From Anaerolineaceae bacterium oral taxon 439 (GTDB taxonomy: Bacteria; Chloroflexota; Anaerolineae; Anaerolineales; Anaerolineaceae): a stretch of DNA of 64,000 nt. Below, in pieces: positions 1,246 through 27,583 of this stretch; position 1 is the first letter of the stretch; the number at the start of each line of letters is the position of its first letter. The DNA is taken from contig CP017039.1 of NCBI GenBank assembly GCA_001717545.1, positions 1,798,001 through 1,862,000 of the forward strand. Direction: 5' to 3'. The notes beneath the pieces were generated by a model. That model saw only the letters and a program-made list of their open reading frames with translations, was not told the origin of the DNA and searched no databases. The position numbers were made by a program, and so were the translations under genes.

Positions 1246-2628
1246 ATGGATTACACTCTGATCGGAATCGCGGCCGTAATCTTTATTGGAATAATCGTGA
1301 CATTGGGGTACGTTAAAGCCCCGCCCGATAAAGCGTTTATCATTTCCGGGCTCAGGCGTAAAGTCGTCGTCGGCAGGTCGGCGATTCGGATCCCATTCCT
1401 CGAACGGTTGGATAAACTTTCGCTGAAAGTCATGTCGGTCGACGTGAAGACCGGGACGGCGGTTCCGACGAACGATTATATTAACGTCAGAGTCGACGGC
1501 ATTGTAAAGATAAAAATTTCGAGCGATCTCGATATGATTGGCAAAGCGGCGCAGAACTTCCTGAACCAGTCCGAAGAATATATTATCGGGCAGGTTAAGG
1601 ACGTTCTGGAAGGAAATATGCGCGAAATTATCGGCCAGCTTACGCTCCCTACCATGGTTCAGGACCGCAAACTTTTCGGGGAGAAGGTCCAGGAAAACGC
1701 CGTGCCGGACCTGGCGAAATTAGGTCTCGAAATCGTATCGTTCAACATTCAATCCTTCGAAGATGAAAACGGCGTTATCGAGAATCTCGGGATCGATAAT
1801 ATTTCGAAGATCCGAAAAGAAGCTTCGATCGCGAAAGCCAACGCCGATAAGGACGTCATTATCGCCCAGGCCAACGCGAACAGGCTCGCCAACGACGCGG
1901 AAGTCGAATCGCAGCGAATTATCGCCGAGCGACAGAATGAACTCGAAATCAAGAAGGCGCAGCTGAAAACCGAAGCGGATAAGCAGAAGGCCGAAGCCGA
2001 TATGGCTTACGATATTCAGGCGGAAGAAAGAAGAAAAGATAAGGAAGCGAAATCCGCGGAGGCCAACCTGATCCGCGAGCAGAAGCAGATCGAGATCCAG
2101 AAAGCAAAGCTCGACGCAGAACAAAAACAGGCCGCCGACGTCCAGCTCTATCAGCGGCAAAAAGAAGCGGAGGCGAAGCTTTTCGAGGAACAGAAGAGCG
2201 CCGAGGCGATTAAGATCAGAGCCGAACAGGAGGCCGCCGCCGTAAGAATCAAAGCGGAAGCCGACGCCGACGCGAAGCGGCAGGTCGGTCTTGCGGAAGC
2301 GGAAGCGCTGCGCGCGAAGGGGCTCGCCGAGGCAGAGGCGATCGACAAGAAAGCGGAGGCCATGAAAAAATATGGCGAGGCCGCCATGCTTGAGATGTAC
2401 TTTAATGTCTTGCCGGAAATTTCAAAAAATATTACCGCCCCGCTCGGCAATATTGACAAGATTACGATGTATGGGGACGGGAACAACGCAAAGCTGGTCG
2501 GCGATATAACGAAATCGCTGACGCAGATAACCGACGGATTAAACGACAGCCTCGGCGTTGACGTTAAGTCGCTGGTTACGGGATTCCTGAAGAATAAAAC
2601 GATCAGTGAGGAAAAAAGCGGCGAGTAA
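1246..2628 (+). CDS. Flotillin / SPFH-domain membrane protein
   Basis: A 460-residue flotillin-family protein: one N-terminal membrane segment (about residues 4-22), an SPFH/band-7 domain (about 25-190), then a long Ala/Glu/Lys-rich coiled coil (about 190-385) and a hydrophobic, less charged tail. Flotillins oligomerise on the cytoplasmic face of the membrane and organise membrane microdomains and membrane protein complexes. The layout fits the FloT/YuaG/YqiK group rather than the shorter HflK/HflC or FloA types. AGGAGG precedes the ATG by 6-7 nt. It is a single-gene unit closed by a strong terminator; no NfeD-family partner is adjacent, although many flotillins have one. Confidence 0.88.
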   Translation: MDYTLIGIAAVIFIGIIVTLGYVKAPPDKAFIISGLRRKVVVGRSAIRIPFLERLDKLSLKVMSVDVKTGTAVPTNDYINVRVDGIVKIKISSDLDMIGKAAQNFLNQSEEYIIGQVKDVLEGNMREIIGQLTLPTMVQDRKLFGEKVQENAVPDLAKLGLEIVSFNIQSFEDENGVIENLGIDNISKIRKEASIAKANADKDVIIAQANANRLANDAEVESQRIIAERQNELEIKKAQLKTEADKQKAEADMAYDIQAEERRKDKEAKSAEANLIREQKQIEIQKAKLDAEQKQAADVQLYQRQKEAEAKLFEEQKSAEAIKIRAEQEAAAVRIKAEADADAKRQVGLAEAEALRAKGLAEAEAIDKKAEAMKKYGEAAMLEMYFNVLPEISKNITAPLGNIDKITMYGDGNNAKLVGDITKSLTQITDGLNDSLGVDVKSLVTGFLKNKTISEEKSGE

Positions 2629-2648
2629 GCCGGTACGCCGCGAACTCC

Positions 2649-2692
2649 ACGTACAAAAAACGATCGGCAAGCGCCGATCGTTTTTTGTACGT
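2649..2692. terminator. Bidirectional Rho-independent terminator
   Basis: A perfect 20-bp inverted repeat (2649-2668 and 2673-2692) with a 4-nt loop has A-run and T-run arms built into the stem, so it can end both the flotillin transcript and the convergent superoxide reductase transcript. Confidence 0.9.
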
Positions 2693-2702
2693 ATTTAATC
2701 CA

Positions 2703-3083
2703 TCAGAGCGCGGTCTTCCAAAGCCCGTGCAGGTTGCAATGTTCATAGACCGCAACCGCTTCGTCGTCGGTAACCGTGAAGACAGCCTTCGGCTTATCGC
2801 CCGCGTTCAGATATTTGATCTGGAAGCCCTTCCGGGTCTCGAGAACGACGAACTCGATCCAGTGCTCGGGAAGCATCGGATGCTCAACCGCTCCAACAAC
2901 AACTTCAATTTTATCACCGGAGACCTTGACATCCGGCACGTGTTTTTCCTTGGCGGCGTCGACCGTATTCGCGGTAACCGGCGCCATAGGCTCCCCGCAG
3001 CAAATCGTGGGGACGTTTCGATCGTTTTTCAACGTGACAATCATTTTTTTGCAGTGCCTGCAATATAAGAATTCAAGTTTCAT
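2703..3083 (-). CDS. dfx: Desulfoferrodoxin (2Fe superoxide reductase)
   Basis: A 126-residue superoxide reductase that reduces superoxide to hydrogen peroxide without making oxygen, an oxidative defence typical of anaerobes. The N-terminal desulforedoxin-type centre is complete (Cys8, Cys11, Cys28, Cys29), so it is the two-iron class. The catalytic Fe site ligands are visible as His48 (in EKHVP), His68 (VEHPM), His74 (EHWI), Cys116 and His119 (CNLHG), together with the Glu46-Lys47 pair near the active site. The start is supported by GGGAG six to seven nt upstream. It is monocistronic, convergent with the flotillin gene. Confidence 0.95.
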   Translation of the reverse strand: MKLEFLYCRHCKKMIVTLKNDRNVPTICCGEPMAPVTANTVDAAKEKHVPDVKVSGDKIEVVVGAVEHPMLPEHWIEFVVLETRKGFQIKYLNAGDKPKAVFTVTDDEAVAVYEHCNLHGLWKTAL

Positions 3084-3156
3084 TTTTTCTCCCTTATTTA
3101 TGCTGAAATGCCTTTCAACTGACGCCTTTATTTTATCATAAATCCGAGAACAGACC

Positions 3157-3198
3157 CCATGTTGTAATTATTTTATGATTTAAACGATTCCAACATGG
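3157..3198. promoter_or_regulatory. 8-bp inverted repeat between divergent genes
   Basis: CCATGTTG (3157-3164) and CAACATGG (3191-3198) form a perfect 8-bp inverted repeat with a 26-nt AT-rich centre. It lies in the 199-bp gap between the superoxide reductase gene and the transglycosylase gene, which point away from each other. It may be a regulator site; nothing else supports this. Confidence 0.3.
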
Positions 3199-3245
3199 CC
3201 CTTCCGATCCTCAAGGCTGCGTTTCGTTTTACGATAGAACTAACG

Positions 3246-3273
3246 TTGACATGCGGGAAAGATATTGTAAAAT
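3246..3273 (+). promoter_or_regulatory. Sigma-70-type promoter of the transglycosylase gene
   Basis: TTGACA (3246-3251), a 16-nt spacer and TAAAAT (3268-3273). The predicted start of transcription falls within about 3 nt of the ATG at 3283, and no ribosome site precedes that ATG, so the mRNA looks leaderless. Confidence 0.65.
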
Positions 3274-3282
3274 TGAACTTAT

Positions 3283-5727
3283 ATGGAACGGGCGAATCGG
3301 ATCAATCACGTGGCGAAGCTTTTCCTGGCCCTGATTCTGGGGCTGGTGATGGCTGGCTGCGACGCGCAGCGGAACGAACTCATCCTCGGACTTTTTCAGA
3401 CCGCAACGCCGATTCCGCCTACGGCGACGGCGACGTCCGCGCCGACAATAACGCTCACGCCGGAACCGACCGAAACGCTCATTCCGCTTGAAGAGCCAAG
3501 CCGCGGGGACCATTATTTCCTGATTGGCGATTTCAAAACTGCGCGTTCCGAATATCGAAAGAGCGCGTTTTCAGCGGCGTCGGAAAAAGAAATCGCCGCC
3601 GCTGAACTCGGGCTGGCGAGAATCGAATCGCAGTCGGGCGAATACGAAGCCTGCCAGAACCGGCTTATCGAGGCGTTGAACCGGATCGGCGACCCCGCGC
3701 TCAAAGCGCCGCTCTGGTATCAGATGTCCGCCTGTCTGCACGAATTAGAGCTGCGCAGGGAGGAAATCAATGCGCTCAGCGAATACCTGAAAGCGAATCC
3801 GGAGAGCCGCCTGGCGTTCGAGATTCAGGAGCGGATCGGCGACCTCTATTTCGCGGAAGGCGACTATCAGGACGCAATGACGATTTATTCCGGACTGGCG
3901 GAAAGAGTCGATTTTATTTCCGGGAACCAGGTCTGGATGAAGGTCGCGGATACCTTCTTCATCCAGGGCGATTACTCGAACGCGCTGCTGGTTTGGATAA
4001 AAATTTTCGAAGCGAACCAGAACGAGGAGCTCCGGGTCCGGATCAACCTCCTTATGGCGGAAACGTACGAGATCATCGACTCAACCGAGCAGGCCTACGC
4101 CCGCTATCAGGACATCGTCAACAGCTATCCGCGCGCTGCGGGAGCGCTGGACGCGCTTCAGGCGTTAAATAACGCGGATCAGGACGTCAACCTTTTCCAG
4201 TCTGGGCTGATTTATTATTATCGCGGGAACTATAAATTAGCGTCGGCCAATTTCTACCGGTTTCTCGAATCCGGGGAAAGCGGCGACGGCGCGCTGATTT
4301 ATTATTTAGGCGTCTCCCAGATGTATGTCGGAAATTACGTCGAAGCGATATCGCTTTTTGACAAGCTGATCGAGGAATTCCCGGAAGACGGGTTCTACGC
4401 GCCCGCCTGGGAAGAAAAAGCATACGTTCAGTGGTACTATCAGGGCAATTATCCGGCGGGGGCCGCAACGCTGTTAGAATATGTCGCGAAACATCCGGAT
4501 CAGCAGCCCGCGCCGGGATACCTTTTCCAGGCAGGACGCGTCCTGGAGACGGCGCATAAACTGTCCGACGCGGCGGAAGTCTGGGAGCGGTTGATCGATG
4601 AATATCCGCTATACGAAAAAAGCGAAGAAGCCCTGTTTTTAGCGGGAATCGCGCGGTACCGGGCCGGGAACTATGACGCGGCGACAGCTACGTTCAACCG
4701 TGAATTGCTGATCGCGACCGACACGGCCGACGTCGCCAAAGCGAATTTCTGGATCGGGAAATCGTACCAGCGGAAAGGCGACGCCGAATTCGCAGAAAAA
4801 TACTTTTTAGCCGCTTCAAGCGCCTCGCCGACCGACTATTATACCGAGCGTGCCCTCGATCTTCTGAGCGGGGCTGAGCCGTTCCAGTTCGCCGCGCCGT
4901 CCGAAGCGATTTCGGGCGACATCGCGAACGAAAAGATCATCGCGGATCAATGGATGCGAATCACATTCAATATCGACGAAGCTGTCGACCTGATGCGGCC
5001 GACGCTCCTGATCGCCGACTCCGATTTTCTCCGCGCGGAAGAACTGTACCGCCTTGGCCGTTTTCAGGAAGCGCTCGAAGCCTACGACGCGGTTCGCGTC
5101 CGGTTTGACGGAGAAGTGGTCGCCTCGTATCAGCTGATGAATACGCTGATCGAAAAAGAGATTTACCGTCCCGCCGTATTTATCAGCCGCGGGATCCTGA
5201 CGCATGCCGGGCTGATCGAAGACGTACGGACGCTGAGCGCGCCGAATTATTTTAATCGGATCCGCTTCGGGACCTGGTACAGCGAGAGCGTCCTCGCGGC
5301 CTGGGAAGAATTCGGTATTCATCCCTTCGTCCTCTACGGAATGATGCGGCAGGAAAGCATGTATGATCCCTGGATTTCTTCCGCCGCCGGCGCTCAGGGG
5401 TTGATGCAGTTCATGCCCGCGACCGGGCGCGAAATGGCCGAAAAGCTGAAGTGGCCGGAGAATTACGGGCCAGACGACCTGCTCCGCGCCGCCGTATCGG
5501 TTCGCTTCGCTGGGAAATACCTTTCGGGTCAGCTTTCCTACTTCGACCAGAACCCGTACCACATGCTGGCGTCGTACAACGCGGGCGCGGGGAATACGGC
5601 GAATTGGATCGACGGCGAAGACGGCGATACAGACCTGTTCCTGGAGATGATCCGATTTGAAGAAACCCGGCTTTACGTTCGCCGGGTCTATGAAAACGCA
5701 AAAATGTACGAACGGCTGTATCGCTGA
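3283..5727 (+). CDS. TPR-repeat lipoprotein with C-terminal lytic transglycosylase (SLT) domain
   Basis: An 814-residue exported lipoprotein. The signal peptide ends in the lipobox LVMAGC (Cys near residue 26), followed by a Thr/Pro-rich linker. Residues about 80-620 are a long superhelical array of TPR-like repeats (recurrent G-N/D-Y-xx-A motifs). The last 140 residues form a soluble lytic transglycosylase (GH23) domain: RQESMYDP contains the catalytic glutamate, followed by SAAGAQGLMQFMPATG and ASYNAGAGN. It should cleave peptidoglycan glycan strands to 1,6-anhydro-muropeptides outside the membrane. This is the Slt70-like architecture with a lipid anchor. It converges on cca with 27 bp between stops and no clear terminator. 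Confidence 0.9.
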   Translation: MERANRINHVAKLFLALILGLVMAGCDAQRNELILGLFQTATPIPPTATATSAPTITLTPEPTETLIPLEEPSRGDHYFLIGDFKTARSEYRKSAFSAASEKEIAAAELGLARIESQSGEYEACQNRLIEALNRIGDPALKAPLWYQMSACLHELELRREEINALSEYLKANPESRLAFEIQERIGDLYFAEGDYQDAMTIYSGLAERVDFISGNQVWMKVADTFFIQGDYSNALLVWIKIFEANQNEELRVRINLLMAETYEIIDSTEQAYARYQDIVNSYPRAAGALDALQALNNADQDVNLFQSGLIYYYRGNYKLASANFYRFLESGESGDGALIYYLGVSQMYVGNYVEAISLFDKLIEEFPEDGFYAPAWEEKAYVQWYYQGNYPAGAATLLEYVAKHPDQQPAPGYLFQAGRVLETAHKLSDAAEVWERLIDEYPLYEKSEEALFLAGIARYRAGNYDAATATFNRELLIATDTADVAKANFWIGKSYQRKGDAEFAEKYFLAASSASPTDYYTERALDLLSGAEPFQFAAPSEAISGDIANEKIIADQWMRITFNIDEAVDLMRPTLLIADSDFLRAEELYRLGRFQEALEAYDAVRVRFDGEVVASYQLMNTLIEKEIYRPAVFISRGILTHAGLIEDVRTLSAPNYFNRIRFGTWYSESVLAAWEEFGIHPFVLYGMMRQESMYDPWISSAAGAQGLMQFMPATGREMAEKLKWPENYGPDDLLRAAVSVRFAGKYLSGQLSYFDQNPYHMLASYNAGAGNTANWIDGEDGDTDLFLEMIRFEETRLYVRRVYENAKMYERLYR

Positions 5728-18452: not shown

Positions 18453-21137
18453 TTACCGAGAAAACGACACTTTCCGAATCTCGCCGCCCGGAGAGACGGT
18501 TACGCGCGTCAGCGACCGGGTCACGATATCGTTCTGCCGAATATCCTTCGCGTAAATAATAACGTAGTCAGTTTCTTCGCCCGGCTTTTTCGGATCGTTC
18601 GGCGACTTCCCGCTCCGGAACTGCTTCTGCACGGTGCAGCTCGTATACGTATCGTCGAGCGTCGCGATCTGGTAGGTTTCCCTGATCTTATCGAAAATCT
18701 GCTTCGCCAGCGCGGAATCGATCGCGATCTTGCTGTCGAGCCGTTCGCGGACGAGATCGTACCGTTTCGCCGTTTTGGCCCGCTGCGCCCTGTCGGTAAT
18801 ATTCGCGTTCGGATCAACCGCGAATAACGGATCGCCGAGGAAAATAAACGACAGCAGGGTTTTCTGGATTTCGCCGTCCAGAGCGCCGGATTCCGCTTCT
18901 GTCTCCGACGCGAAATTCTTTTTCGCGCGCCGGAAGGCCTCGCCGGTCGAAATTCCGGTGCGAAGATGCTGCCAGAACAGGTGCGCAAGGAGATCCGCCG
19001 CGGTCAGCGGGAGCGTCACCGCGCCGTAAGAGATCGTCGTCGAACCGATAAAAACCTTCGTCCCTTTTCCGATCATATGCAGCGAGATAGCGTTCGACTC
19101 GTTCCGTTTATCGATCTCCGCACCGTAGCAGTTCTCCGCGAATACGACGTCCGGCGCCCGATGGAGATGATCCAGGTTGCTCATCTGAAGCGCGATCGGG
19201 AGCGTCGTCAGCGTCGACTGATCGCGCGGATCCTTCTGCCCGTACCAGTTCGGTTTCCCCTTGATTCCATGCAGGTTGAAATAAGCGTACTGGCATTCCT
19301 CCAGATGTGACACGGGGAAATTTGTCGCGGTAACGCCCGGAGAGGTCGCCAGGCTTCCGTTTCCAGCGATATTCCGGTACACGGCGACGGAAGGACGTTC
19401 CCAGACCTGCGCCGATAAACCGAATGTCTTCGATTCCTTGATCGCCTTACTGAAGCCGGAAAAGCTCAGCGTCTTCTTCGCCTTCCGGTTTTTTCGCCGC
19501 TGCCGAATCTCGGTTTCAGCCGAACGGATATGATGATTCTGAATATTCCGAAGCTGACTCAAGAGCAAACCGGGGTCCGAACTGTTATCCCCGGGAACGC
19601 GCCCCAATTGCCACTGCTGATCGAAGATCCGCGTTTCGTCGAACGTCGCGTAAGGCGCGTCGGACGGGATCGATAAATCGTCGTCCATCGCCGGATTCTT
19701 CAGCGAAAAGAACGGAACGACTTCCGGACCGCCGACGATCAGCACGGCGCCGATCATCGAGCCCTTCTCGGATAACGCGCGATCCAGCTTGACCAGCTCC
19801 TGCTTGATCAGCGTCGGATCCTGATAGGCGCGATGATTCGTCGCGAATTCATCCGGATAAAAGACCATGGCGTTCCAACCCTCGCGATTATCGACCGCCT
19901 CCGCGACCAGCTGCATTTCTTTTCCAATAAAATCCTTATTATTCTTCCCATATTTCGCGGTCAGCCCGCCAATCGTCGACAGCACGACATAAATCGGGAA
20001 ACGCTCGTCCGAATTCGCGACGTCCAGTTTATAGACGTATTCTTTCAGGCCGGTAGCGCTTTCAACGGCTGGCTTGCGCCGGAAGAGCGAAAAAAACCAG
20101 TTCTGAAACGAATTCGGTTTTTCCGCGATCGCCTGCTTCCGCTCGCGGGCCACGGGCGTTTCCGCCGTCTCGCCGGTTACGGTCGCTTTCGTTTCCGAAG
20201 TTGCGTCGTCGATCTCCAGAACCGAAACGTCCGGGGCATCCTCTGCTTCGTCGCCCTGCGCGGAATCGTCTCCGCTTTCGTCCGCGCCGTCCAGCTCCGT
20301 TTCCAACGGCTCGTCCGGGCTCAGGTCGTCGTCGGCGACTGATATTCCGGGAATGCGTTCAAGCTTCGCGGCCTGGACTATTTTTTCCGGGATCGGAATC
20401 CCGGAAAGATCAACGCTCAGTTCTTCCGGGGCAAAGAATAAACGCCTGTACGAATTTCTTTCTCCCCAGAGCCTTCCGGCGACCATCCCCAGCAAATCCG
20501 ACTCGATCGTACTGTGAATCAGTTTCGCCCCTTCCTCAATCGAGCCGATCTGATTCAGAAATTCCCCGTACAGGAGCTTAAACTGAATCGCATGCGGCCA
20601 CCTGCGCAGGTAGATATTCATCAGGCGCCGGTATGACTCGGGGTCCTGACGCTGGAAGCTGTCCTTCGCGATTTTCAACGCTGAAAAGATATCAAAATCG
20701 TCAATATCTTCAAGCATGACGTCTTTTGGTCCCGGTTTCCTCCGGAAGACAGTTTTTAAAAACGATAACGGAGTCCCGCTATCTGCGTCCGGCGAAAGCG
20801 CTTCCGTCTTTTTTAAGCGCTGCGCCCGGGTTTTCGCCGCCTTCCGCTCCTCGGATCCGTCCGGATACAGCACGGAAAGCAGCGCCCAGACTTCCTGAAA
20901 CTCAGGATCATAACGCACGATTAATTCAGATAAACGAATCGCGTCATGCGTCTTTCCGGTCTTGAACAGAACGATCGCCAACCGGTATCGCATCCATAAA
21001 TCGCTCGGATATTCCCTCAGCCACGCGATCAGGAGCTTCTCCGCCACGTCGAAATTCTCCAGCTGGAATCCGGCGTTGGTAAGCTCTGTAAACTGCGGAC
21101 GGGTAATATAGTTCTGTTGAGCGAAATTCTGACGCAT
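18453..21137 (-). CDS. TPR protein with C-terminal caspase-clan (C25-like) cysteine peptidase domain
   Basis: An 894-residue protein without signal peptide or membrane segment. The N-terminal part (about 10-240) consists of TPR-like helices; residues about 275-350 are an acidic, low-complexity linker; a Lys/Arg-rich stretch lies near 535-555. From about 370 to 760 it resembles clan CD peptidases of the gingipain (C25) type: a predicted beta-strand then FNLHGIKG with His623, and VVFAENCYGAE with Cys670, the spacing expected for a His-Cys dyad, followed by FIGSTTISYG and FIFLGDPLF. A basic/mixed tail follows. Substrate unknown. It is the last gene of the sigma-54 cluster, 35 nt after a small membrane protein. 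The peptidase assignment is from motifs only; an inactive homologue is possible. Confidence 0.6.
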   Translation of the reverse strand: MRQNFAQQNYITRPQFTELTNAGFQLENFDVAEKLLIAWLREYPSDLWMRYRLAIVLFKTGKTHDAIRLSELIVRYDPEFQEVWALLSVLYPDGSEERKAAKTRAQRLKKTEALSPDADSGTPLSFLKTVFRRKPGPKDVMLEDIDDFDIFSALKIAKDSFQRQDPESYRRLMNIYLRRWPHAIQFKLLYGEFLNQIGSIEEGAKLIHSTIESDLLGMVAGRLWGERNSYRRLFFAPEELSVDLSGIPIPEKIVQAAKLERIPGISVADDDLSPDEPLETELDGADESGDDSAQGDEAEDAPDVSVLEIDDATSETKATVTGETAETPVARERKQAIAEKPNSFQNWFFSLFRRKPAVESATGLKEYVYKLDVANSDERFPIYVVLSTIGGLTAKYGKNNKDFIGKEMQLVAEAVDNREGWNAMVFYPDEFATNHRAYQDPTLIKQELVKLDRALSEKGSMIGAVLIVGGPEVVPFFSLKNPAMDDDLSIPSDAPYATFDETRIFDQQWQLGRVPGDNSSDPGLLLSQLRNIQNHHIRSAETEIRQRRKNRKAKKTLSFSGFSKAIKESKTFGLSAQVWERPSVAVYRNIAGNGSLATSPGVTATNFPVSHLEECQYAYFNLHGIKGKPNWYGQKDPRDQSTLTTLPIALQMSNLDHLHRAPDVVFAENCYGAEIDKRNESNAISLHMIGKGTKVFIGSTTISYGAVTLPLTAADLLAHLFWQHLRTGISTGEAFRRAKKNFASETEAESGALDGEIQKTLLSFIFLGDPLFAVDPNANITDRAQRAKTAKRYDLVRERLDSKIAIDSALAKQIFDKIRETYQIATLDDTYTSCTVQKQFRSGKSPNDPKKPGEETDYVIIYAKDIRQNDIVTRSLTRVTVSPGGEIRKVSFSR

Positions 21138-21172
21138 GACGATTCTTCAACCCCGAAACTTTCAATCCATTT

Positions 21173-21481
21173 TTATCTGGTCAGGAAGTAAACGCTGACC
21201 GTCAGCATGATCCCCCCTATGATTACAAGAGCCATGCCAATCCCGCGTTTTGTCTCAATCAGGAGATTCAATTCCTTAATCAGAAAACTCGCGTTGCCTA
21301 ACGCGCCGCTGAGTTCCTCGCCGAATCCTTTCTCGGCCAGCTTCGCCGCGTGCTTCTGAACCGATTTCGCCTCGCCGGAAAAAACGTTGGAAATCAACGT
21401 TAAAATTCCGCCGAGCAGCGCGATTAAACCGCCGATCGCTAAAATCACAATAATCAGTTTAAGCAATTCCTGCTGTTCCAT
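21173..21481 (-). CDS. Small two-helix membrane protein
   Basis: A 102-residue protein with one hydrophobic helix at each end (about 7-31 and 79-100) and an amphipathic, charged middle. The topology places the middle on one side of the membrane as a hairpin. No family is recognised. It begins 9 nt after the response regulator stop and is followed by the TPR-peptidase gene, so it may tether one of these to the membrane; that is speculation. Confidence 0.65.
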   Translation of the reverse strand: MEQQELLKLIIVILAIGGLIALLGGILTLISNVFSGEAKSVQKHAAKLAEKGFGEELSGALGNASFLIKELNLLIETKRGIGMALVIIGGIMLTVSVYFLTR

Positions 21482-21490
21482 CGTTGCTCC

Positions 21491-22663
21491 TTACTCGGCT
21501 AAAACCGCGATTTCAGCCGGGAAACCGCTGAGTTGAATTGTATCCCCGGCGCAAAGGATCACCGCCCGTTCGCAGGCGTTTCGCAGCTCGCGGATATTCC
21601 CCGGCCAGCGATACTTCTTGATCGCGCTGAGAATAACCGGATCGATATAAGGGATATTCTTCCCTTGTTCGAGGCTGATTTTCTTAATGAAGAAGACGAA
21701 CAGCTCCGTAAGATCGTCCAGCCGCTCGCGCAGCGGCGGCAGTTCGATATGGATAACGTTCAGGCGATAGAACAGGTCGGACCGGAACGTCCCCTCCGCG
21801 ATCATCGCGGGAATATCATGATTCGTCGCGGCGATGATCTGGACGTCGACGGGGATCTCCTTCGTCCCGCCGACGCGCCGGATTTCCTTCTCTTCCAACG
21901 CGCGGAGGAGCTTGGACTGCATATCGAGGCTCATCGAAGAAATTTCGTCAAGGAATAAAATCCCGCCGTCCGCGGCTTCGAAAAGGCCGCGATGGAGCTT
22001 ATCGGCGCTGGTAAACGCCCCGGCTTCATGCCCAAACAGCTCGGATTCCAGCATCGTCGGCTGAATCGCGGAGCAGTTAATCGGGCGGAACGGTTTTTTG
22101 GCGCGCGGCCCGTTTTCATGGATAAATCGGGTGATAACCTCTTTCCCGGTCCCGGTCTCGCCGGTAATCAGGATCGACGCCTGAGCCGCCGCGGCTTTCA
22201 TCGCGCAATCGTACGCCTCGCGGATCCGTGAATTTTTTCCAAGAATGAAATCAGACGTTCCGGATTGCGTCGAACGCTGGAAATAAAGCTCGCGTTCGAG
22301 CTTGACGACGTCGAGCGCTTTCTTAATCGTCGCTTCCAGGAGCGAAAAATTAACCGGCTTACTTAAAAAGTCGTACGCACCGTTCTTCATCGCGTCAACC
22401 GCCATCTCAACTTCGCCGTAGGCGGTCATGATAATCGTCTTCGGCGCAGGGTTCATCAGTCGAATCGCGGGCAGTAAATCAAGCCCGTATTCGGGACCAA
22501 CCTGAACGTCGAGGAGAATAATATCTACTGGCGTCGACGCCAGGATATTTCGTGCGTCGGTTAAATTTCCCGCGTCCGCTACGCTGAATTTCTCTGAAAA
22601 GTATTCTTTAAGCCCTTCCCGAAAATTATCTTCATCGTCTACAATCAGCAATGTAAAATCCAC
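21491..22663 (-). CDS. Sigma-54-dependent response regulator lacking a DNA-binding domain
   Basis: A 390-residue NtrC-family activator. Residues 1-120 are a receiver domain (VDDED acidic pocket, LLDVQ with the phospho-acceptor Asp, TAYGE, SKPVN). Residues about 140-375 are the AAA+ sigma-54 interaction domain: Walker A GETGTGKE, Walker B GGILFLDE, and the loop that contacts sigma-54 as GAFTSA rather than the canonical GAFTGA. The protein stops about 15 residues after the AAA+ domain, so the Fis-type helix-turn-helix is absent. It should activate RNA polymerase-sigma-54 from solution, as known for a few family members. It follows the kinase gene by 2 nt. Confidence 0.92.
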   Translation of the reverse strand: MDFTLLIVDDEDNFREGLKEYFSEKFSVADAGNLTDARNILASTPVDIILLDVQVGPEYGLDLLPAIRLMNPAPKTIIMTAYGEVEMAVDAMKNGAYDFLSKPVNFSLLEATIKKALDVVKLERELYFQRSTQSGTSDFILGKNSRIREAYDCAMKAAAAQASILITGETGTGKEVITRFIHENGPRAKKPFRPINCSAIQPTMLESELFGHEAGAFTSADKLHRGLFEAADGGILFLDEISSMSLDMQSKLLRALEEKEIRRVGGTKEIPVDVQIIAATNHDIPAMIAEGTFRSDLFYRLNVIHIELPPLRERLDDLTELFVFFIKKISLEQGKNIPYIDPVILSAIKKYRWPGNIRELRNACERAVILCAGDTIQLSGFPAEIAVLAE

Positions 22664-22665
22664 GC

Positions 22666-24591
22666 TCAGCCTCCATCGGGAATCGGTAACAGTATTTCGA
22701 AAACGACGCCTTCAGACAATGATTTTACCTGAATTGTTCCCCTATGGGTTGTGATAATGCGCTTCGTCACCGCCAGTCCCCAACCGTTCCCGTTTTTCTT
22801 CGAGGTAATAAACGGCTCGAAAATATGATCGATCAATTCATCCGGGATCCCCGGCCCGGTATTCGCGACCGACAGCATCGCCACGTTCCGGCCCGGGATC
22901 CCGGACGGCTGCGTCGATAAGCGCAGCGAGATCGTCCCGCCGGCATGATCGATCGCGTCGACCGCGTTTTGGACCAGGTTGGTAATCACCTGATCCATGG
23001 ATTTCACGTCGATCAGGAGCTTCGGGAAATCGTCCGGTTTCCGAAAATAGCACCGGATATTTTCAACGGCAAAATCGCGTTTCCAGCGCTCTAAGATAAC
23101 GTCGATCAGGACGCCGAAATCGGTCAGCTCCGGATTCAGCTTCAGCGGGCGCGAAAACGCCAGAATATTCGAAATCGTATCCGATACCCGCTGGCAGTCA
23201 TTCTCGATCCGCGTTGCGGCAGAATAAATCGGGCCCCGTTTTTCGCTGTTCGCTTTGATATTCTGGATCCAGGTGTTAATATTATTGACCGGATTTCGAA
23301 TCTCATGCGCCATCATCGAAGCGAAATCGCCCAGAATCGCGCGCTGCGTTAGCTGTTCCGTTTTCAGCCGGCTCTCCTCTGTCTCGGTCACGTCGGTCAG
23401 GACGAAGACGTAATACTGATTTTCCTCAGTGAGACTGACCTTTGAAAACCGGATCTGGCAGGGGAAACGTTCACCGCTGCGCCGGTGCAGGTACTGAACC
23501 GACGGCGTTTCGACGAAATCCTCTCCATCCGCAGGAAACGAATCGACGAACTTCCGAATCGAAACGTTCGAAACGAGCAGGTCTTCCAGCTGATGACCAA
23601 AAATATCGTCCAGCTTAAACCCGAACATCTGGCCCGAAATCGCATTCAGATAAGCGATTTGAAGCTGTTGATTCGTGATTACGATTCCTTCGCGAACGTT
23701 TTCGACAATCCGGATATTCAGCCGGTTCTCAAAATCGCTTTGATAAAGCGCCTTGGTCATCGTAACCTTATCGATCAGCGACTGAAAAAAAGTCGCAAAA
23801 ACTTCTAAAACCGTCTGCAGCGTCTCCTGTGCATACTCGCGATTATCATATAAAACGATAATGAACCATCCGATCGTTTCGCCTCCGTTTACGAACGGGA
23901 AGGCGAGATAGGTATCGGGAATTTCCTCCGCCACGTCCTGAAGCCGGGAGAGCGCCCCGGATTTCAGCCGATCGAACCGCTCCAGATATGGCGAATAGAC
24001 TTTATATGCGTTCTCTTTCCTGGCGAGCCGCTCGGCGACGTCGAATAATCCATAACTTTTTAACGATACGTCCGGATAAAAATTAAACGAGGCCAGATTC
24101 AGCGCAACCGTCGTCCGGAGGATAAACGTTTCAAAATTATCGATAAAATCCTTCCGGGAGAGAAACGTCGTCGAGGCAGTCCGAATCAGCCCGGTCAGAC
24201 CGTCGATCGACTGATCGATGCTTCGGTTCCCAGCCCATTGCGCATTGACGACGACCGAAACGATTCGTCCGGCGTCCTCGTCCAGCGCAGAATTACGGAC
24301 CTGAACCGGGAAAACGCGGTCGTCCGGCGTTATGAACTCGAACCACATAATATCGAACGCAAAGCTCCGTACTTTCGTCCAGTTGCGTACGTAATCGCCG
24401 AGAAAGCTCGAATCCTCGCGGAACCGTCGGAACATCTCAACCGCCAACCGGTTGGCCGAGACGATTCTTCCGTCGCCGCTTTCCCAGACGAACGCCGGCG
24501 TTACCAGCGCGCGCAGGAAGGCTCCGGCCAACGGTTCCGCCGATTCGAACGTAAAAGCGTCGGAGACGAACGAGGCCGTTTTATTTTCCAT
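22666..24591 (-). CDS. Soluble sensor histidine kinase with PAS and GAF domains (NtrB/AtoS-like)
   Basis: A 641-residue kinase without membrane segments, so it senses a cytoplasmic signal. Order: PAS-like (about 20-130), GAF-like (about 140-290), PAS (about 315-425), dimerisation/phospho-acceptor domain with MAHEIRNPVNNI (phospho-His), then ATPase domain with N box NLVQNAVDAI, G1 NTGPGIP, F box IFEPFITSK and G2 GWGLA. The ATG at 24591 overlaps the last 11 nt of rpoN; a longer frame from 24696 reads through rpoN and is not expected to be used. It pairs with the response regulator just downstream. Confidence 0.9.
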   Translation of the reverse strand: MENKTASFVSDAFTFESAEPLAGAFLRALVTPAFVWESGDGRIVSANRLAVEMFRRFREDSSFLGDYVRNWTKVRSFAFDIMWFEFITPDDRVFPVQVRNSALDEDAGRIVSVVVNAQWAGNRSIDQSIDGLTGLIRTASTTFLSRKDFIDNFETFILRTTVALNLASFNFYPDVSLKSYGLFDVAERLARKENAYKVYSPYLERFDRLKSGALSRLQDVAEEIPDTYLAFPFVNGGETIGWFIIVLYDNREYAQETLQTVLEVFATFFQSLIDKVTMTKALYQSDFENRLNIRIVENVREGIVITNQQLQIAYLNAISGQMFGFKLDDIFGHQLEDLLVSNVSIRKFVDSFPADGEDFVETPSVQYLHRRSGERFPCQIRFSKVSLTEENQYYVFVLTDVTETEESRLKTEQLTQRAILGDFASMMAHEIRNPVNNINTWIQNIKANSEKRGPIYSAATRIENDCQRVSDTISNILAFSRPLKLNPELTDFGVLIDVILERWKRDFAVENIRCYFRKPDDFPKLLIDVKSMDQVITNLVQNAVDAIDHAGGTISLRLSTQPSGIPGRNVAMLSVANTGPGIPDELIDHIFEPFITSKKNGNGWGLAVTKRIITTHRGTIQVKSLSEGVVFEILLPIPDGG

Positions 24592-25999
24592 TCGCGGCTT
24601 TCCTGAGCCGGGCAGGCAGGATCCCTTCCATGGCCCGGTACTTCGCGACGGTCCGCCGCGCGATATCGAACCCCATACCCTGAAGAATTGAAACAATTCC
24701 CGCGTCCGTCAGCGGCTTTTTCTCGTCCCGGATCAGGTCGCGGATAACAGTGCGAACGTTGAGGCTGCGGTCGAAAAAGATCGAAAGCGGGACAACTTTT
24801 CGATTGGGAAGCATGACCGATTTATTTGCGACGGCGCGGCTGATCGTCGATTCATGCACGGATAGTTCTTTCGCGATTTCGGCCCTTGTAATCGAAACGA
24901 GTTCCGATTCGCCCTTGCGGATAAACGGCTCCTGATAACGGATAATCGCGCGCATCAGCATTTCCATCGTATTATTCCGGTTATCCAGCGATTTTACCAG
25001 CAGCGACGCGCGATCGAGATCGCTTTTCCACTGTTCCGCTTTTTCCTCCGGCGCGTTTTTCATCTCTTTTTTGAACGCCGGGTTGACGCGAAGGTATCCG
25101 CGGATCGGCATAACGATTTCAATAATCAGCTGGTTGCGCGGATCGTCGTTCTGATACGAGACGATGACGTCAGGGAAATGAAAAACCTCGACGTCCGGAC
25201 GGCCCGGCATTCCGCGCTCGCCCCAGAACGAACGTCCCGGGTACGGGTTCAGGTTTTCGCCGATGAACTTCTCGATCAGCTGGAGCTGCTTCAGCGAAAG
25301 CTGATGACGCTGCAGGATTTCCCGCGATTTCCGATGAATCAGCAGATCATAAGAGCTGCGGATAACTTCTTCAGTCTGATACGGGATCGACATGAGATTG
25401 GACAGATGCTTCAGCTGGATCAGGAGCGCTTCCCGCGGATCCGAAGAGCCGACGCCAAGCGGATCGGCCCGCTGGATCACTTCGATAACGTCTTCAACCT
25501 TTGAGACCGGGACATGGTAATACGAAGCGACCTCCAGGACCGGCGAGGTGATAAACCCGTCCTCGTCTAACTCGGTCAGCAGGTACGCGGCGATCAGCTT
25601 CTCGTCTTCCTCAAGGTCGGCGCCGATCTGCCTCAGGACGTAGCTCGCTAAATCTTCGGGCTGAGCCGAGTCGACGTCGGGCTCGGACGACGAAGCGCCG
25701 GAATAGCCACCGCCCTGATAATATTCGACGGCCAGTTCATCGCGCGGACTGACGAAATAGACGTTCTCTTCGCTGACGTTCTTTTCCGCGAAGCATCGCG
25801 CGCAATACCCTGACGGGCCCAAAGGCCGATGACAATACGGACAGATCCGCTCGTCGATATATTCGAGCGCAGGATTATTCGCGACTTCAGAATCAACCTT
25901 GTCCTTGATTTCCTCCGCAGGCATATTTAAAAACGTCATCGTCTGCGCGATATGCGCCGTGGTGATCGTCCTGTGCTGGGGTCGCTGCGTTTGAAACAT
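24581..25999 (-). CDS. rpoN: RNA polymerase sigma-54 factor with an inserted zinc ribbon
   Basis: A 472-residue sigma-54. The C-terminal RpoN box is intact (ARRTVAKYR), as is the helix-turn-helix segment LSVHESTISRAVANK. Region I at the N terminus is diverged and short, and is followed by a probable zinc ribbon with Cys53, Cys56, Cys66 and Cys69 (CxxC-x9-CxxC), which ordinary RpoN proteins do not have. Sigma-54 directs polymerase to -24/-12 promoters and needs an AAA+ activator, supplied here two genes downstream. AAGGAAAG lies before the ATG, with an untranslated leader of about 50-60 nt. Confidence 0.93.
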   Translation of the reverse strand: MFQTQRPQHRTITTAHIAQTMTFLNMPAEEIKDKVDSEVANNPALEYIDERICPYCHRPLGPSGYCARCFAEKNVSEENVYFVSPRDELAVEYYQGGGYSGASSSEPDVDSAQPEDLASYVLRQIGADLEEDEKLIAAYLLTELDEDGFITSPVLEVASYYHVPVSKVEDVIEVIQRADPLGVGSSDPREALLIQLKHLSNLMSIPYQTEEVIRSSYDLLIHRKSREILQRHQLSLKQLQLIEKFIGENLNPYPGRSFWGERGMPGRPDVEVFHFPDVIVSYQNDDPRNQLIIEIVMPIRGYLRVNPAFKKEMKNAPEEKAEQWKSDLDRASLLVKSLDNRNNTMEMLMRAIIRYQEPFIRKGESELVSITRAEIAKELSVHESTISRAVANKSVMLPNRKVVPLSIFFDRSLNVRTVIRDLIRDEKKPLTDAGIVSILQGMGFDIARRTVAKYRAMEGILPARLRKAANGK

Positions 26000-26055
26000 G
26001 CTTCCGAGTCTTTCCTTCGCCGGGCCTGCGTCCGGTGCAATAACTATGCCGTATA

Positions 26056-26070
26056 TATGATAATATCATA
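26056..26070. promoter_or_regulatory. Palindrome overlapping the rpoN promoter region
   Basis: TATGATA-A-TATCATA, a perfect 7-bp inverted repeat about 57 nt upstream of the rpoN ATG. The same bases supply TATGAT/TATTAT-like -10 boxes on the minus strand, so a bound protein would block them. Confidence 0.35.
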
Positions 26071-26199
26071 CCATACTTCAAAGCAAAACGCGGCTCCGGT
26101 TGAAAGCCTGATGAAGGCAGTTTCCCCTTGGCCCGGGCCAGCTCCGACCGGCGCGCCACCGGAATTCCCGGGGTCCGCCGATTCAAATCGAAATCTGGA

Positions 26200-26205
26200 T
26201 ACAAT
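26200..26205 (+). promoter_or_regulatory. -10 box giving a leaderless trmFO transcript
   Basis: TACAAT ends 7 nt before the ATG at 26213 and no ribosome site intervenes. Confidence 0.5.
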
Positions 26206-26212
26206 AAGGCTT

Positions 26213-27583
26213 ATGTGCAATAAACTGAACGCTCCGCTCCCGGAGGTTACCGTCGTCGGCGCAGGCTTAGCCGGCTCCGAAGCCGCTTGGATTCTCGCCG
26301 AAGCCGGCGTCAACGTCGATCTATACGAAATGCGCCCCATTGTAAAAACGGAGGCGCACCGGACCGCGCTGCCTGCGGAGCTGGTCTGTTCCAATTCGCT
26401 GGGGTCGGACCTTCCCGACCGCGCGTCAGGCCTGCTAAAAGAAGAGCTGCGCCGAATGAACTCGCTCCTGGTTCGCGCCGCGGAAGAAACGCGCGTTCCG
26501 GCCGGCGCAGCGCTCGCCGTCGATCGCGATCTTTTTTCGAAAAAAGTCGCCGACGCGCTTGAGAACCATCCGCGAATCCGAATCCTCCGGCAGGAGCTCC
26601 GCGATATACCGGTCGGCCGTCCGACGCTGCTCGCCGCCGGCCCGCTGGCGAGCCCGGCGCTGTCCGAATCGTTAGCGCGGCTGACCGGAAAAGAGAATCT
26701 GTTTTTCTTCGACGCGATTGCCCCCGTCGTCAGCGCTGATTCGATCGATTTCACGCGAGCCTTCCGCGCTTCCCGCTACGATCGCGACGGGAGCGGCGAC
26801 GGCGATTATATCAACTGCCCGTTTACGCGGGAAGAATACGAAACCTTTATCGCCGCGCTTCTATCCGCTGAACGGATTCCGCTGCGGTCGTTTGAAGAGG
26901 CGATCCGGTCCGGCGTCCGGATCGGACGGGGTCCTTTTTTCGAGGGATGCCTTCCGATCGAGGTCCTGGCGGAGCGAGGGAAAGACGCGCTGGCTTTCGG
27001 ACCGCTGCGTCCCGTCGGGCTGATCGATCCGAGAACCGGGAAACGCCCCTGGGCCTGTTTGCAGCTGCGTCAGGATAACCGGAACGGCAGCGCGTACAAC
27101 CTCGTCGGCTTCCAGACGAACCTGAAATACCCGGAACAGAAGCGCGTATTCAGGACGATCCCCGGGCTGGAAAACGCGGAGTTCCTTCGCTATGGCGAAA
27201 TGCACCGGAATACGTTTATCGCCGCGGCCGGCGTCCTGAACCGGGGGCTGCAGCTCATCCGATATCCGAACGTTTTTATCGCAGGTCAGCTGGCCGGCGT
27301 CGAGGGCTACATGGGGAATATCGCGTTCGGACACGTCGCGGCGCGGAACATGGTCCGGTATCTCAGGAACGAACCGCCGGTCGACTGGCCCGAGGAGACG
27401 ATGATCGGCGCGCTCCTGAAAGCGGTTACCGGGAACGACACGGACGACATCCAGCCGGTCAAAGCGAATTTCGGGATCCTGCCGGAGTTGGACGCCGCGA
27501 TCCGATCGAAAAAAGAACGCGCGGCACAGCACGTCGCCCGTGCGCTGGAACGGTATGAAACGGACCCATTCTGGGATCGCTGA
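26213..27583 (+). CDS. trmFO: Methylenetetrahydrofolate-tRNA-(uracil-5-)-methyltransferase
   Basis: A 456-residue FAD protein that makes ribothymidine at tRNA position 54 using methylenetetrahydrofolate. The N-terminal dinucleotide fold is VVGAGLAGSEAAW, followed by YEMRP and LVCSNSLGSD (the latter typical of TrmFO), and near the C terminus GQLAGVEGYMG and GHVAARN. I start it at the ATG at 26213; the reading frame is open further upstream, but homology begins at VTVVGAG and the -10 box sits just before this codon. Divergent from rpoN, convergent with the cold-shock gene. Confidence 0.94.
   Translation: MCNKLNAPLPEVTVVGAGLAGSEAAWILAEAGVNVDLYEMRPIVKTEAHRTALPAELVCSNSLGSDLPDRASGLLKEELRRMNSLLVRAAEETRVPAGAALAVDRDLFSKKVADALENHPRIRILRQELRDIPVGRPTLLAAGPLASPALSESLARLTGKENLFFFDAIAPVVSADSIDFTRAFRASRYDRDGSGDGDYINCPFTREEYETFIAALLSAERIPLRSFEEAIRSGVRIGRGPFFEGCLPIEVLAERGKDALAFGPLRPVGLIDPRTGKRPWACLQLRQDNRNGSAYNLVGFQTNLKYPEQKRVFRTIPGLENAEFLRYGEMHRNTFIAAAGVLNRGLQLIRYPNVFIAGQLAGVEGYMGNIAFGHVAARNMVRYLRNEPPVDWPEETMIGALLKAVTGNDTDDIQPVKANFGILPELDAAIRSKKERAAQHVARALERYETDPFWDR

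Follow-up and report, generated by a model that had tools for sequence, protein, structure and literature searches.

The window analysed here is a stretch of 64,000 nucleotides from Anaerolineaceae bacterium oral taxon 439 (contig CP017039.1, positions 1,798,001 to 1,862,000). It carries, in a row on one strand, rpoN, a histidine kinase with a PAS domain, a sigma-54 activator, a small membrane protein with two predicted helices, and a gene for a TPR-C25 peptidase, the protein with which this report is mainly concerned. A preliminary description had read the last of these as a TPR protein with a probable His623-Cys670 peptidase dyad of the clan CD type. The gene and its parts, in window coordinates, are as follows.

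18453..21137, minus strand: TPR-C25 peptidase gene, 894 amino acids from its ATG, called from Pfam, a structural model and dyad conservation
20463..21107, minus strand: N-terminal TPR-like helical region, residues 11-225 (Pfam TPR_19 at 25-88 and model helices)
20028..20342, minus strand: acidic disordered linker, residues 266-370 (Asp/Glu content and model confidence, pLDDT)
18813..20000, minus strand: C25 (gingipain-fold) catalytic domain, residues 380-775 (PF01364 at 435-772; gingipain R match over 381-778)
19269..19271, minus strand: codon of His623, presumed catalytic (kept in 81/81 of the set of relatives and 23/24 phylum-wide)
19128..19130, minus strand: codon of Cys670, presumed nucleophile (kept in 81/81 and 20/24, respectively)
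18456..18812, minus strand: C-terminal alpha-beta domain, residues 776-894, with a Ser-Arg end (C-terminal residue counts; cystatin-like arrangement)

The Pfam profile Peptidase_C25 (PF01364) matches residues 435-772 with 33.6 bits (cut-off 23), and neither CHAT, Peptidase_C14 nor Peptidase_C50 was matched at E ≤ 1; the clan CD assignment holds, with C25 as the family. TPR_19 exceeds its cut-off at residues 25-88. An AlphaFold2 model built with 53 sequences (mean pLDDT, the predicted local distance difference test, of 80.2) places helices at 13-113 and 150-211, in keeping with the proposed TPR region. In this model the helical arm and the catalytic domain are ordered, residues 270-369 are disordered (pLDDT <50) and the C-terminal alpha-beta domain is less certain. 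Structural comparison with VIA-align matched the model to gingipain R at Z 28.2 (2.5 Å over 305 aligned residues) and 27.2, with weaker matches to gingipain K (Z 23.8 and 23.6), separases (10.5-14.0), the Craspase TPR-CHAT protein Csx29 (10.0-13.0) and PorU (12.2), while Foldseek ranked gingipain K first (E 7.6e-10). The fold is therefore that of the gingipains, and does not depart from the caspase-like type that had been anticipated. No signal peptide is evident by hydropathy (highest 19-residue Kyte-Doolittle mean 0.64 within residues 1-48), consistent with the cytoplasmic location suggested earlier. The acidic linker is likewise borne out: residues 266-370 contain 27 Asp/Glu versus 10 Lys/Arg among 105, and the segment varies among homologues as well as being disordered in the model. 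The preliminary description had offered self-cleavage or interaction as possible roles for it.

The two presumed catalytic residues lie where the preliminary description had placed them, His623 within NLHG and Cys670 within AENCYG, 47 residues apart and each shortly after a predicted β-strand (617-621 and 664-667). A single-protein search of genome contigs returned no relatives; an alignment-based search of named genomes found 292, and the best 80 of these together with the window protein make up an 81-protein set. These 80 derive from Anaerolineae, Chloroflexi/Chloroflexota or genera thereof, including Candidatus Aquidulcis (Chloroflexota), the nearest among them being a Flexilinea sp. metagenome-assembled genome (locus L029; Flexilinea belongs to the Anaerolineaceae). 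His623, Gly624, Cys670, Glu668, Gly672, Asp493 and Tyr704 are kept in 81/81. When 301 genomes were sampled evenly across the phylum, 25 matched the C25 protein, of which 24 were aligned; G177, matching TPR residues 11-120 only, was omitted from the alignment and the distribution tests, and the rows kept include two weak partial matches (G011 and G179, E about 1e-4) and two truncated ones (G061 and G246). His is present in 23 and Cys in 20 of the 24, so that the dyad is far from being replaced in most homologues. All four proteins lacking Cys670 (L011, L012, L015 and L018) belong to family f48, one of them also lacking His623, and by their sequences they constitute a pseudo-peptidase branch. 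The C25 fold and retention of the dyad therefore identify the window protein as a TPR-C25 peptidase without an export signal, which is predicted to be proteolytically active.

The extreme C-terminus is also conserved. Among the 81 proteins the last two residues are Ser-Arg in 75, Ser-Lys in 4 and Ser-His in 2, making the Ser-Arg end (window 18456-18461) nearly invariant; it is also present in the four Cys-less f48 proteins, and catalysis alone therefore does not explain it. Domain 776-894 has a cystatin-like arrangement, with a best Z of 6.9. Such a domain would fit self-inhibition of the C25 enzyme; as this Z falls short of the level the tool regards as trustworthy, we mention inhibition as a speculation and do not claim it.

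The genes upstream of the peptidase gene are those of a putative sigma-54 circuit.

21173..21481, minus strand: TM102, a 102-amino-acid protein with two predicted membrane helices (hydropathy; homologues at the loci of relatives)
21491..22663, minus strand: response regulator with a sigma-54 activation domain, without a DNA-binding domain (Pfam)
22666..24696, minus strand: histidine kinase with a PAS domain, start codon uncertain (Pfam)
24581..25999, minus strand: rpoN (sigma-54), the sole copy found in the genome (PF04552 and PF04963)
26036..26051, minus strand: sigma-54-like site CGGCATAGTTATTGCA, first base 52 bp before the rpoN ATG, score 13.0 of 15.5

HTH_8 is not listed by Pfam for the activator, which thus consists of a receiver and an AAA+ domain without the helix-turn-helix. 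Its tail is short in 50/50 relatives, ending 34-48 residues after WPGN. The window genome has one match to PF00158 at 228 bits, and three more that also pass the Pfam cut-off but score only 31-34 bits, in frames of 823-886 amino acids. On the far side of rpoN lies a divergent GidA-like gene (25952-27583), which adjoins rpoN in 4/5 of the f1 relatives read.

All 60 named loci whose flank upstream of the C25 gene is 5.6 kb or longer have a TM102 homologue, versus 0/20 loci with less flank. In 59 of the 60, an open reading frame of >1400 amino acids (~1800 in size) lies between the membrane protein and C25, the exception being Flexilinea L029. These giant genes were called by length and position, with Pfam TPR checked for three; the two scanned from named loci match TPR over most of their length. 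The regulator adjoins the membrane-protein gene in 48/60 loci. Loci L020, L027 and L028 each carry a second fragment of a gene included elsewhere in the count. In 13 of the 20 other C25 genomes of the phylum with flanks read, C25 has a giant TPR gene (1748-2553 amino acids) next to it, with a small TPR gene between the two in G288; the giant gene does not adjoin C25 in G029, G061, G121 and three Cys-less f48 genomes. Both Flexilinea-like genomes lack the giant TPR gene together with the site before TM102 (window 21137-21173; L029 9339-9444), and both keep the dyad.

The cassette thus outlined has a promoter-type site of its own in most relatives. The exact pattern TGGCAYN5TTGCW occurs within 150 bp upstream of the TM102-homologue start in 47/60 loci (median -60), compared with 0/48 before the regulator, 0/46 before the kinase and 0/78 before C25; these counts exclude regulators <200 bits, kinases <140 bits, minus-strand matches and genes whose start is no more than 150 bp from the end of a locus. 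The site is present in 45/48 loci with an adjoining regulator versus 2/12 without (p 2e-7, relatedness ignored). With a graded score whose weights sum to 15.5, 53/60 loci reach ≥13 before the membrane-protein gene, compared with 6% of random 310-bp stretches. A site also precedes rpoN: in six other genomes four such sites are strong (14.0-15.0), with G208 at 12.5 and G283 at 11.5 (not the best of its stretch), while L029 scores 13.5 and the window 13.0. A score of 13 is reached by 0.5% of 100-bp single-strand window stretches and at five positions in the whole window. Taken alone, the window site is modest evidence for an rpoN promoter, and the argument is instead based on a position common to the relatives. 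A candidate promoter inside the TM102 gene (21239, score 12.5) was rejected, as it lies in coding sequence and has TTGT, not TTGC.

A scan of eight genomes with the consensus pattern gave counts clearly over control (8-21 vs 1-6) in all but one of the six other Anaerolineales genomes, the exception being G224 with 8 vs 4. Several individual sites were noted on other loci. In the window genome, tandem consensus sigma-54-like sites (L191 2123 and 2216; G000:C1:1116123 and 1116216) precede a gene for a protein of ~510 amino acids with a signal-like N-terminus and without a Pfam match. Also in this genome, a minus-strand site (L192 3325) stands 65 bp upstream of the start of a gene for a GH25 lysozyme (2520-3302; PF01183, 126.8 bits), which may be a regulon member that cuts the wall. 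In two genomes (L129 and L145), sites before membrane-protein genes that resemble each other and have a WPVQW motif may mark a further member.

A second operon, distant from the cassette in the window genome, is linked to it by the same type of site. It includes a gene for a protein of ~430 amino acids, here called protein X, which adjoins C25 in eight distant genomes (G019, G029, G121, G270 and four of f48) and lies 1.2 kb after C25 in G224. A homologue was found in 7/10 genomes searched, six of family f1 and G224, and in 7/7 of these a consensus site stands just upstream of X and an ftsZ gene follows it. The window genome has TGGCATATTTATTGCA, with its first base 55 bp from the protein X ATG; G104 and G208 have an additional site before ftsZ. 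The chance of a site at ≤120 bp on the right strand is small, 1e-4 to 4e-4 per genome, with the reservation that these genomes are related by descent. Co-regulation of the C25 cassette and the X-ftsZ operon is thus well supported at the level of sequence. No Pfam match was obtained for protein X in the three members scanned, and a PDB search gave nothing significant; as Pfam offers no match in these three, the label of TIM barrel would be guesswork.

Each of the seven X-ftsZ genomes encodes two FtsZ proteins. The second matches the FtsZ_C profile, has the GTP-binding motif and retains the C-terminal peptide, and it forms a separate branch with support of 100/100 in a tree with long branches. 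Its T7 loop reads NVDF[AS]H in 7/7, compared with NLDFAD in FtsZ1 (10/10): the Asn and first Asp are kept and the second Asp is replaced by His in 7/7, leaving the set of residues for GTP hydrolysis incomplete. The corresponding residue of E. coli FtsZ, D212, is named among the highly conserved residues of the T7 loop in a passage of PMC8456036. We infer that GTP hydrolysis by the second FtsZ is impaired.

A similar arrangement recurs in G128, from another family of the class, where a kinase, an activator, a consensus site, a small membrane protein, a giant TPR gene, C25 and a degenerate FtsZ-family gene follow each other on one strand. Pfam recognises the kinase, the TPR, the activator (207.7 bits), C25 (35.4) and Tubulin/FtsZ (58.9). 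This activator carries HTH_8, unlike that of the window; rpoN is on another contig, and protein X was not found in G128. Over the phylum sample, rpoN (100/301 genomes over the cut-off used, not the 103 at E ≤ 0.001) is present in 17/24 C25 genomes versus 83/277 others (p 1.4e-4). Of 16 genomes with a protein X match at E <1e-30, 15 also have C25 (p 2.5e-18, relatedness ignored). Within the order, C25, over-cut-off rpoN and the second FtsZ are all absent in 17/17 f2 genomes, two of which have sub-threshold rpoN hits, and all present in 7/7 f1/f3 genomes. We rejected a phylum-wide rule equating a second FtsZ with the C25 system, since two FtsZ are encoded in many genomes that lack C25 and a single FtsZ in most of the distant genomes that have it.

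The sequences themselves show the fold, the conservation of the dyad, the order of the genes, the promoter-type sites, the co-occurrence and the second FtsZ, and upon these we base a model in which catalysis, signalling, sigma-54 transcription, membrane recruitment, substrate cleavage and a link to division would each have a place. We consider it probable that the non-exported TPR-C25 peptidase is the proteolytic part of a Chloroflexota cassette, formed with the small two-helix membrane protein and the giant TPR protein, and that in most loci of the Anaerolineaceae type this cassette is controlled by a sigma-54 circuit whose genes lie next to it. The kinase would sense a signal and phosphorylate the activator, which would open sigma-54 promoters before rpoN, before the membrane protein/giant TPR/C25 genes and before the distant X-ftsZ2 operon. 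The C25 peptidase is probably held at the membrane through its two-helix and TPR partners and probably cuts a limited substrate, possibly acting on or with the second FtsZ. As both the giant TPR gene and the promoter before the membrane-protein gene are gone from the Flexilinea-like lineage of the window, C25 would there be read from the rpoN promoter. More tentatively, sigma-54 in the Anaerolineaceae may serve one dedicated programme, comprising a membrane-anchored complex of TPR proteins and gingipain-fold peptidase, protein X and a hydrolysis-impaired FtsZ, in effect a separase-style analogue controlling an alternative tubulin-like filament; we regard this as possible, though short of likely.

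Several observations weigh against the model. At the level of the protein, a PDB sequence search with the catalytic-domain profile returned nothing significant and did not reach the gingipain chains (with the full-length profile, the best 60 of 368 matches were TPR or other repeat-containing chains), and a look by eye at the helix after strand 571-576 found no obvious conserved counterpart of Asp163, the acidic S1 residue of RgpB that goes with Arg or Lys in P1. At the level of the circuit, the rpoN-upstream site of the window, CGGCATAGTTATTGCA, is imperfect (CGGC), and the activator loop reads GAFTSA instead of GAFTGA; among 50 relatives the loop is GAFTGA in 20, GAFTSA in 11, GSFTGA in 8, GAFSSA in 4 and GAFTDA in 1, with 6 unmatched by the pattern. 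Consensus sites are not in excess in the window genome (7 vs 10 in the control; 11 vs 24 with a looser pattern), and a large regulon is therefore not claimed there. The giant TPR protein is conserved in other genomes, but a search of the window genome gave only weak TPR matches and no counterpart. No regulator stands beside TM102 in 12/60 loci (L066 ends too early, and in L032 and L105 the regulator is ~3 kb away); the circuit is therefore not universal. Finally, the FtsZ link lacks generality, as a single FtsZ is carried by most C25 genomes outside the Anaerolineales and G128.

This last point bears on the rival that survives best, in which the peptidase is a membrane or envelope stress protease unrelated to division and the second FtsZ a co-regulated bystander. 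The single FtsZ of most distant C25 genomes fits it, as do the sites before the signal-like and GH25 lysozyme genes of the window genome, and sigma-54 is termed a controller of the bacterial exterior in PMC3162934. An FtsZ-family gene within the C25 cluster itself, in both G224 and G128, speaks for a closer connection. We take the bystander explanation to be a real possibility, albeit not one we would expect to prevail. It is improbable that the protein is instead a structural pseudo-peptidase or scaffold that has lost cleavage. The f48 homologues without Cys670 indicate that such a loss is tolerated in that family, but both dyad residues are invariant in the close-to-moderate homologues, and the giant TPR gene is beside none of three Cys-less C25 genes versus 13/17 with Cys (p 0.03, relatedness ignored; the fourth, G241, was left out because only 155 bp of contig precede its C25 gene).

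A caspase/CHAT-type effector of defence or cell death, activated in the manner of Craspase by a conformational change of a partner, would account for the combination of TPR and clan CD fold and for the Z of 10-13 against Craspase TPR-CHAT chains. The gingipain fold is much closer (Z 28), PADLOC reported no defence system (the C25 protein gave only weak TPR stretches of PDC-M16B, at 14-17 bits), and within one bacterial family the gene keeps its place beside rpoN, kinase and activator, which, we infer, sets it apart from a variable defence island; we judge this reading unlikely. A secreted digestive protease like the gingipains, the form in which the structurally known C25 enzymes occur (PMC4357240), is very hard to reconcile with the lack of an evident signal peptide, the TPR arm and an operon shared with regulators.

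The TPR-C25 peptidase of the proposed cassette can be compared with several known systems. It shares the Pfam family, the overall fold and the His-Gly and Cys placed after successive strands with gingipains R and K, and its Tyr704 (81/81) presumably corresponds to the aromatic residue found behind the next strand in clan CD members. Gingipains are secreted and have an N-terminal prodomain and an Ig-like domain, whereas the protein described here has a TPR arm, a disordered acidic linker, another C-terminal domain and no evident export signal. Separase (C50) likewise joins a clan CD fold to a helical repeat arm, the giant TPR protein of the relatives being encoded by a separate neighbouring gene; it belongs to another family, and the resemblance is one of fold only. 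Csx29 of Craspase also pairs TPR with a clan CD peptidase; here the CHAT profile is unmatched, the fold match is weaker and the named neighbours are not CRISPR genes (arrays were not searched). Among activators, FlgR controls flagella and CtcC chlamydial development, whereas the window activator would control a peptidase cassette. All three have a receiver and an AAA+ domain without a DNA-binding domain, the architecture given for group 5 in parts of PMC7175178 and PMC7482065.

The C25 family is familiar mostly through secreted virulence proteases. In section 13 of PMC4357240 gingipain alone is treated for C25, and a passage of PMC3162934 has sigma-54 and its activators in some Chloroflexi only. 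Among the matches listed in the open-licence literature on C25 or gingipain in Chloroflexi/Anaerolineae or together with TPR, on sigma-54 in Anaerolineae/Chloroflexi and on a second FtsZ in Chloroflexi, none concerns this system. A conserved C25 branch that lacks an export signal and has a transcription circuit of its own suggests that gingipain-fold enzymes are used for regulated proteolysis inside the cell. It also offers a possible function for sigma-54 in Chloroflexi/Anaerolineae, for which none is named among those matches. That the dedicated circuit would also drive a second FtsZ hints that these bacteria have a programme for division or development that is yet to be described, and the link to this FtsZ with its altered T7 loop provides a testable entry to division or development of filamentous Chloroflexota. 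If the more specific reading is true, limited proteolysis would steer an alternative filament as these filamentous bacteria divide, as their filaments fragment or at some other stage of their development.

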